Below are positions 7,939-8,903 of a DNA stretch of 38,859 nt, piece after piece. Under the pieces are notes generated by a model, which was not told the origin of the DNA, searched no databases, and was given only the letters and a program-made list of their open reading frames with translations. Positions within the stretch are counted from its first letter, which is position 1. Each line of letters opens with the position of its first letter. The stretch comes from a virus. The translations under genes were made by a program, and so were the position numbers. Location: positions 1 through 38,859 of the IMG/VR virus record IMGVR_UViG_3300020202_000157. One strand, written 5' to 3'.

Positions 7939-8562
7939 ATGAACAAAATCACAATTCACCGCGCATTAGCTGAACTGAAGCTTATCGACGCTAAAATCGA
8001 AAAGGGCATAAACGAAATTTATCCCACAGGAATATTCCAAAAGGGTCGCAAAATAGATAACTGGATTTCAGAAGACGAGTTTAAAAAGAACGCCCAAAGC
8101 CAGTACGATTCAGTGACTGATCTCATTAATCGAAAGGTTAAAATAAAATCCGCTATTGTCAATGCCAACTGCGTGACAAAAATCAAGGTGGGCGAACGCG
8201 ATATGACAATAGCTGACGCCATCAACTTCAAGCGAGTAATCGAAATGAAAAAGAAGCTCGTAAATGAAATGAAGCGTAAACACATGGTCGCGGTGGGGAA
8301 CATGAATAAGAACAACGAGATTGTGCAGAAGAACGTAGAAACGCTTTTAGCGAATGCTCTTGGTAAGGATAACGTGAAGACCTCAAAAGAAGACGTGGAC
8401 GCGATTTCTAAGCCGTATTTGGATAACAACATCTTCAGCCTGTTTAATCCACTGGAAACTGAAAAGAAAGTTGAGGCGCTTGAGAAAGAGATAAATGAAT
8501 TTGAGTCGGAAGTTGACGCTTGTCTTAGTGAGGCCAACGCCACGACGTTCATAGAATTTTAA
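7939..8562 (+). CDS. Helical phage protein, DIP1984-like arrangement
   Basis: 207 aa, starting MNKITIHRAL. It is almost entirely helical. 'IHRALAELKLIDAKIEKGI' near the N-terminus, a short loop region, 'SVTDLINRKVKIKSAI', then a long Lys-rich coiled coil and a C-terminal 'KVEALEKEINEFESEVD'. The layout recalls DIP1984/septicolysin-like helical proteins, but the match is by pattern only. It lies just upstream of the structured RNA and may share its transcript. Confidence 0.55.
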   Translation: MNKITIHRALAELKLIDAKIEKGINEIYPTGIFQKGRKIDNWISEDEFKKNAQSQYDSVTDLINRKVKIKSAIVNANCVTKIKVGERDMTIADAINFKRVIEMKKKLVNEMKRKHMVAVGNMNKNNEIVQKNVETLLANALGKDNVKTSKEDVDAISKPYLDNNIFSLFNPLETEKKVEALEKEINEFESEVDACLSEANATTFIEF

Positions 8563-8655
8563 AAAGACTTAACCGGCCATGCGAAAATCGCAAACACTAT
8601 CCCCCGCTTTAGGGTTAGAAAAGCACCCAAATGTTTATTGGAAAACAGCCAGGTC

Positions 8656-8687
8656 CACAGGGTCGCCGGTTCGACTCCGGCATCTGC
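8656..8687 (+). tRNA. tRNA 3' half (permuted order)
   Basis: It reads: anticodon-stem strand CACA (8656-8659), variable loop GGGTC, T-stem GCCGG, T-loop TTCGACT, T-stem CCGGC, acceptor strand ATCTGC (8682-8687). An ATA follows, and then the 5' half begins. The T-arm is a perfect consensus. CCA is not encoded. No 5' half lies upstream. Confidence 0.75.
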
Positions 8688-8690
8688 ATA

Positions 8691-8720
8691 GCAGATTAGC
8701 TCAGTTGGTTAGAGCATGTG
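8691..8720 (+). tRNA. tRNA 5' half (permuted order)
   Basis: It reads: acceptor strand GCAGAT (pairing with ATCTGC of the 3' half), TA, D-stem GCTC, D-loop AGTTGGTTA, D-stem GAGC, A26, then TGTG (8717-8720), which pairs with CACA of the 3' half. All cloverleaf stems can therefore form between the two halves in swapped order. The anticodon loop is not contiguous anywhere and cannot be assigned. No T-arm follows downstream. Confidence 0.75.
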
Positions 8721-8903
8721 AAAACACGGAAAGCTCAAGGTTGAAAGCTGAAAGCATAAAGGTAAAAAATCAAAGTTATTATCTGTCAAAGGTGAAAACT
8801 GAAACACAAAAGCTCTTTCAAATCCTGTCAAAAGTTTTGAAAGGCTGTGATAGTATGGCCTCGCGGTTTGTATCAGGCTGCATGGCCGGTTAATTTATTT
8901 AAC

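Follow-up and report, generated by a model that had tools for sequence, protein, structure and literature searches.

The window analysed here, the whole 38,859-nt stretch of viral DNA from record IMGVR_UViG_3300020202_000157, carries a 325-nt structured RNA (8569-8893). On our best overall explanation, this RNA and the phrog_1491 gene directly upstream are probably the two components of a protein-RNA module conserved among phages. Inside this RNA lies a tRNA in permuted order, its 3' half placed upstream of its 5' half. The features are as follows:

7939-8562, + strand: gene of the phrog_1491 protein (207 aa, database label "tail fiber"), directly upstream of the RNA (phrog_1491 match, E 2e-56)
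8569-8893, + strand: structured non-coding RNA, whole element, with transcript ends as suggested by the outer helix (full-length alignment with L352-L357, covariation)
8569-8582, + strand: outer helix, 5' strand, 14 bp with 8880-8893 (both-side changes in 12 of 14 pairs; 31 of 31 anchored members)
8583-8595, + strand: conserved CGAAAANC box, starting at C8582, between the outer helix and the "P7" strand (invariant alignment columns; anchor in 40 family members)
8596-8601, + strand: "P7" first strand, pairing with 8849-8854 (100% paired; both-side changes in 5 of 6 pairs)
8602-8624, + strand: CCC/GGG hairpin (8602-8604/8612-8614), with a loop (8606-8610) able to form a pseudoknot with 8620-8624
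8627-8641, + strand: small hairpin CCAA...TTGG (both-side changes in 3 of 4 pairs)
8655-8687, + strand: tRNA 3' half, comprising the anticodon-stem 3' strand, variable loop, T-arm and acceptor 3' strand (YrlA match, alignment, covariation)
8691-8720, + strand: tRNA 5' half, comprising the acceptor 5' strand, D-arm and anticodon-stem 5' strand, anticodon loop lost (YrlA match, alignment, covariation)
8721-8812, + strand: A-rich tract with AAA at a spacing of ~7 nt (family-wide periodicity)
8824-8827, + strand: first strand (CCTG) of a P3-like helix, pairing with CAGG 8874-8877 (UCCNNN/NNNGG match, 38 of 40 anchored members)
8849-8854, + strand: "P7" second strand (covariation)
8874-8880, + strand: CAGG strand of the P3-like helix and conserved GGCTG box (8876-8880) (family anchors, alignment)
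8880-8893, + strand: outer helix, 3' strand (shuffle test, covariation, partner-swap test)

The tRNA arm is recognized by a T-stem (8665-8669/8677-8681) and an acceptor 3' strand (8682-8687), followed after an ATA linker (8688-8690) by the acceptor 5' strand (8691-8696), a D-arm (8699-8715) and the TGTG at 8717-8720, which pairs with CACA 8656-8659. An earlier note, made from the DNA letters alone, had proposed just such a permuted order within one RNA; this is confirmed, and compensatory changes in homologues back the arrangement. The Rfam model of YrlA, which is likewise a mimic of a tRNA in permuted order, matched the tRNA part in a permissive scan with 48.2 bits (E 9e-10), a score below the gathering score of 69 that is mainly a statement on the tRNA part, and by this match the permuted domain stands far above chance. 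No family reached threshold in the Rfam scan of the window, and ARAGORN found no tRNA in normal order there. A DNA similarity search of a phage collection with the window returned tRNA pieces only.

The window copy has neither an anticodon loop nor a CCA, and its acceptor arm counts 6 bp closed by a triloop. Its halves pair with each other, yet rotating them gives no proper anticodon loop; the earlier remark that no sensible loop could be built was thus right, the alignment showing that the loop is kept by relatives and missing in the window. T-arm, D-arm and acceptor pairing are nevertheless still perfect in this decayed copy. Judged by its sequence, it is a decayed tRNA-like arm and no longer a tRNA, and a functional tRNA is therefore unlikely to come from it. 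As to the statement that no gene fits here, a 104-codon ATG frame exists at 8579-8893, but this frame crosses the tRNA and no support for it was found. We also considered an attP site or a remnant of tandem tRNAs, and rejected both because the halves pair mutually and the homologues keep the order.

A permuted tRNA was found in the variable middle of the RNA in the six closest relatives (L352-L357) and in L436 (identified by eye in L352 and L436, and by script as well in the others). Halves in normal order in related phages would have spoken against the permuted reading; all seven relatives keep the permuted order. In native order, ARAGORN detected no tRNA in L352-L357. When the halves were rotated, with join points picked by us to close a 7-nt loop (or a variable arm for Leu) and with CCA added for L352, L353 and L357, it read Cys(gca) in L352, L355 and L357, Tyr(gta) in L354, Leu(tag) in L356 and a doubtful Phe(aaa) in L353, that is, a normal tRNA in five of the six relatives. 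CCA is encoded in L354, L355 and L356, where a spacer then precedes G1, and the anticodons of these three are intact; degenerate copies are found in the window, L352 and L353. In the Tyr and Cys relatives the break falls where the anticodon loop ends (38/39), and in the Leu relative it falls in the variable arm. Two further sequences were set aside: L424, in which ARAGORN reads a normal tRNA-Tyr, and L425, which looks permuted and has no clear anticodon loop. Permuted tRNA genes escape standard tRNA finders. Outside subscription papers we found no report of such genes in bacterial viruses, and the papers found concern algae and archaea.

The outer parts of the RNA hold together as a structure of their own. 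The inverted repeat 8569-8582/8880-8893 is, as first described, a perfect 14-bp helix, and a helix of at least 12 bp arose in 0 of 300 dinucleotide shuffles of the flanks. The proposed "P7" (8596-8601/8849-8854) is at chance level when taken alone, some 6-bp match occurring in 94% of shuffles, but is made real by the homologues, in which 100% of cells are paired. A full-length alignment of seven sequences (the window and L352-L357) has 87.5% of cells paired and both-side changes in 33 of 55 pairs, including 12 of 14 in the outer helix, 5 of 6 in "P7" and 5 of 6 in the acceptor arm; the compensatory changes that the earlier note had suggested looking for in related phages are therefore present in all three. 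The covariation score was 0.511 versus 0.195 in shuffles, none of 500 shuffles reaching the observed value; this control leaves some kinship effect among seven related sequences, which is removed in slid versions, where the score was at most 0.126. The CCC/GGG hairpin and its pseudoknot show 95% and 76% of cells paired with little covariation in the same alignment.

The earlier note had read these outer elements as a permuted group I intron that would splice out a circular RNA, while reporting that no P3 could be found. A P3-like helix does exist (CCTG 8824-8827/CAGG 8874-8877), conserved in the family and only 4 bp long in the window. The P3-like and P7-like helices cross each other, and the opened outer helix stands where P8 would be, an arrangement that resembles the topology of group I. 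This arrangement and the Tyr and Cys breaks at the end of the anticodon loop, with rotation yielding normal tRNAs, speak for a self-splicing group I (or new group I-like) ribozyme that would join the tRNA halves and release a circular tRNA precursor. The spacing, however, differs from group I. Some 20 nt separate the P3-like and P7-like 5' strands (8828-8848 in the window, similar in relatives), so P4-P6 cannot fit, and on the 3' side the distance from P7 to P3 is ~19 nt against 0-1 for group I. Group I introns follow the rule that the 5' exon ends in a U paired to G and that the intron ends in G (PMC11915505); at the tRNA breaks of L352-L357, neither a conserved U-G pair at the 5' splice site nor a terminal G is found. 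Moreover, the break moves to the variable arm in L356, most members of the family have the core with no tRNA halves, and the Rfam group I model found nothing on the native strand up to E 10, although the model is blind to permuted order. We therefore rejected the permuted group I intron as originally described, for its P4-P6, joining lengths and splice signatures, and a group I identity of the outer RNA is unsupported. Group I chemistry appears unlikely from the sequences compared, and a permuted intron-exon gene of any such kind is in our estimation quite improbable.

What the outer RNA does belong with is the neighbouring gene. In the syntenic genome L263 (terminase 66% identical), the genes that flank 7939-8893 are directly adjacent, and the phrog_1491 gene and the RNA are therefore present or absent together. 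Matches to phrog_1491 occur in 759 phage records, the homologues lying frequently within tRNA clusters, and in each of the 12 homologues inspected (T5 T5.085, KIL1, Bennett, P1048, DLP2, LC76P1, Jenst, Dulem virus 39, Hena1, L095 and the near-identical L122 and L123) a non-coding stretch of 260-600 nt follows the gene on its 3' side. The protein has no Pfam or NCBIfam match. Its AlphaFold model is all-helical and confident (pLDDT 90.5); the best solved fold is 3kdq_C, an uncharacterised Corynebacterium protein (probability 1.00, E 0.004), and the top matches in a viral library are uncharacterised phage proteins only. Pfam DUF6847 matched weakly in 3 of 46 phrog_1491 members, and a cellular cousin of the protein (3kdq, DUF6847) may exist, judging from these model-based comparisons. 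Neither the glycosyltransferase neighbour of the element nor nhmmer searches with the window flanks, in a sequence set that lacked the right relatives, gave a lead.

Homologues fetched from viral contigs gave 93 family sequences; a non-redundant set comprised 73. From the 5' end, the shared layout runs through an outer helix of 10-21 bp and free sequence, CGAAAAC, a helix strand, the CCC/GGG hairpin and a variable middle, and continues with the A-rich tract, UCCNNN, the second helix strand, GUUUGU, NNNGGCUG and the closing strand of the outer helix. Strict anchors found this core in only 40 of the 93, and distant members are therefore connected to the family in part through position and motifs. 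The anchored outer helix was seen in 31 of the non-redundant 73 and in none on the reverse strand; all 31 anchored members have it, and swapping partners between members lowered this from 100% to 10%. The UCCNNN/NNNGG match of the P3-like helix was seen in 38 of 40 anchored members. Across the family, the AAA period of the A-tract was evident at lag 7 (82 vs 12 expected) and lag 14 (70 vs 12). The window shows every one of these family traits: a phrog_1491 gene just upstream, the outer helix, the CGAAAA box, the P7-like and P3-like helices, the GGCTG box and the 7-nt AAA tract. In T5 and most other members of the family, this core encloses no tRNA halves.

In T5 itself (L346, AY543070, 43062-43505), 443 non-coding nt with the motifs of the window RNA follow T5.085, and the outer helix of this region reaches 21 bp with one mismatch allowed; Rfam has no match in 43062-43505. 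The RNA family is already partly in Rfam, as motifs with unknown function. Rfam places skipping-rope (RF02924) and RAGATH-27 (RF03100) in the gap 3' of the phrog_1491 gene in Jenst and Dulem virus 39, two relatives in which these motifs sit exactly at the start of the RNA; the relatives with a match are L343 and L344. Unlike the window RNA, the two models are 80-86 nt long and hold no tRNA, and they describe candidate RNAs of unknown function; they appear to be 5' fragments of the phrog_1491-associated kind of RNA. In the Rfam scans, neither matched the window, the 12 relatives scanned or T5.

The YrlA match raises another possibility, namely a bacterial Y RNA, which carries a tRNA mimic on a stem, binds Ro60/Rsr and links this protein to an RNase. 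Y RNAs are known in bacteria and mycobacteriophages (PMC12282133; PMC8394870), and YrlA (RF02553) shares with the window RNA a permuted tRNA-like domain with the same hairpin acceptor arm of 6 bp and a triloop. In a pattern scan, permuted units were many in viral contigs, and a TROVE (Ro60) gene accompanied them in 33 of 44 other phage records versus 1 of 25 control records. The units of these Ro-phages have their own covarying outer stem, and we take them to be Y RNAs, look-alikes of the window RNA. The window RNA differs from YrlA in having no Ro-binding stem, another outer core and another partner protein: model R1 of the Ro-phage Y RNAs matches positions 52-111 only, the tRNA part, and leaves the stem out. 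No TROVE gene is present in the 38.9-kb window record, which is possibly a fragment, and a host protein could serve instead. The outer core is that of the phrog_1491 family, and the tRNAs of relatives are complete, including anticodon and CCA. On the misfit of the stem to R1 and the membership of the core in the phrog_1491 family, the Ro60/Y RNA reading was rejected for the window, and we regard it as very improbable indeed.

Several of the other permuted units deserve description in their own right. Ro60-type units (L024, L029, L044, L057, L068, L089, L107, L118, L124 and others) often have a full anticodon arm split at 28/29, and in 27 of 71 permuted units a 5-bp stem with a U33 loop is restored across the break; Ro60-type phage Y RNAs with an anticodon arm may be true permuted tRNAs or derived from them. 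Ligation by RtcB was considered for them, and RtcB was found in 0 of 19 Ro-type records. Xanthomonas phage Olaya (L124, MW802488, 18958-19540) has an unannotated array of ~4 permuted tRNA-like units immediately 5' of a hypothetical gene found to encode TROVE (Ro60). Two tandem permuted tRNA-like domains each, the second D-arm being followed by an intact anticodon arm, occur in three genomes without TROVE, a Lewinella MAG (L244), Bacteroidetes MAG RI_132 (L248) and Maribacter algarum (L245); the first two lie near a WYL-type-regulator-like gene and the third near a slipin-like gene (names assigned by eye). Permuted tRNA-like units with neither TROVE nor the phrog_1491 core were also seen in L016, L035, L085, L092, L098, L140, L200, L204 and L224, in the first of which TTCATCCTTCTA is repeated near the units; these are possibly further kinds.

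To return to the phrog_1491 module, the RNA and the phrog_1491 protein likely form an RNP, and the 7-nt AAA repeat would be a natural candidate for repeated protein contacts, setting a binding register. Most members, T5 among them, have no tRNA, and therefore the main role of the RNP cannot depend on one. In one branch, which includes the window, the permuted tRNA sits between the 5' part of the core and the A-tract. Where relatives encode CCA, RNase P and the 3'-end enzymes should cut at the tRNA's own ends in the middle of the transcript, which would leave a two-piece tRNA with its opened loop fused to the RNA core. This parallels permuted tmRNA, in which tRNA enzymes cut at the tRNA's own ends and base pairing keeps the two resulting pieces of the transcript together (PMC11915505); both have the 3' half before the 5' half, a spacer between CCA and G1, and a loop region that opens out into a bigger RNA with pseudoknots. 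Unlike tmRNA, the relatives of the window RNA retain real anticodons, no tag reading frame is seen, the partner is the phrog_1491 protein and not SmpB, and the core structure is different; in the window, ARAGORN found no tmRNA and permuted tmRNA models scored at most 9 bits. The permuted tRNA genes of algae and archaea likewise have the 3' half first, a short spacer and halves that rotate into normal tRNAs. The phage units differ from them in lying inside a conserved phage RNA, and here no bulge-helix-bulge motif or archaeal-type endonuclease is expected and no ligase was identified. For the relatives, splicing of the halves into a normal tRNA would compete with the two-piece reading. The arm in the window would have no role beyond that of a structural mimic of a tRNA.

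Recombination in a tRNA-rich region could instead have dropped neutral tRNA remnants into the RNA by accident. Such an origin would account for the lack of a tRNA in most family members and its varying identity among relatives, for the degenerate copies in the window, L352 and L353, and for the frequent position of homologues in tRNA clusters. It fits poorly with seven relatives that share both the permuted layout and its position, with acceptor pairs that covary (5 of 6), with CCA and anticodons intact in L354-L356, and with a decayed window copy that keeps perfect T-arm, D-arm and acceptor pairing, and we consider it unlikely.

Altogether, the protein-RNA pair stands side by side in T5, Vibrio, Pseudomonas, Lactococcus, Acinetobacter and Bacteroidota-type phages and seems to have gone unnoticed, the gene being labelled tail fiber and the RNA mostly unannotated. 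We tentatively propose, as a possibility that we hold well short of probable, that T5-like and many other phages share a widespread RNP whose RNA core can take up a permuted tRNA, and that in some of them tRNA enzymes may make from it a chargeable tRNA in two pieces, joined to an RNA of 250 nt, tmRNA-like and equipped with its own anticodon and partner protein. As phrog_1491 occurs in so many phage records, cultured models such as T5 make the function of the pair directly testable.
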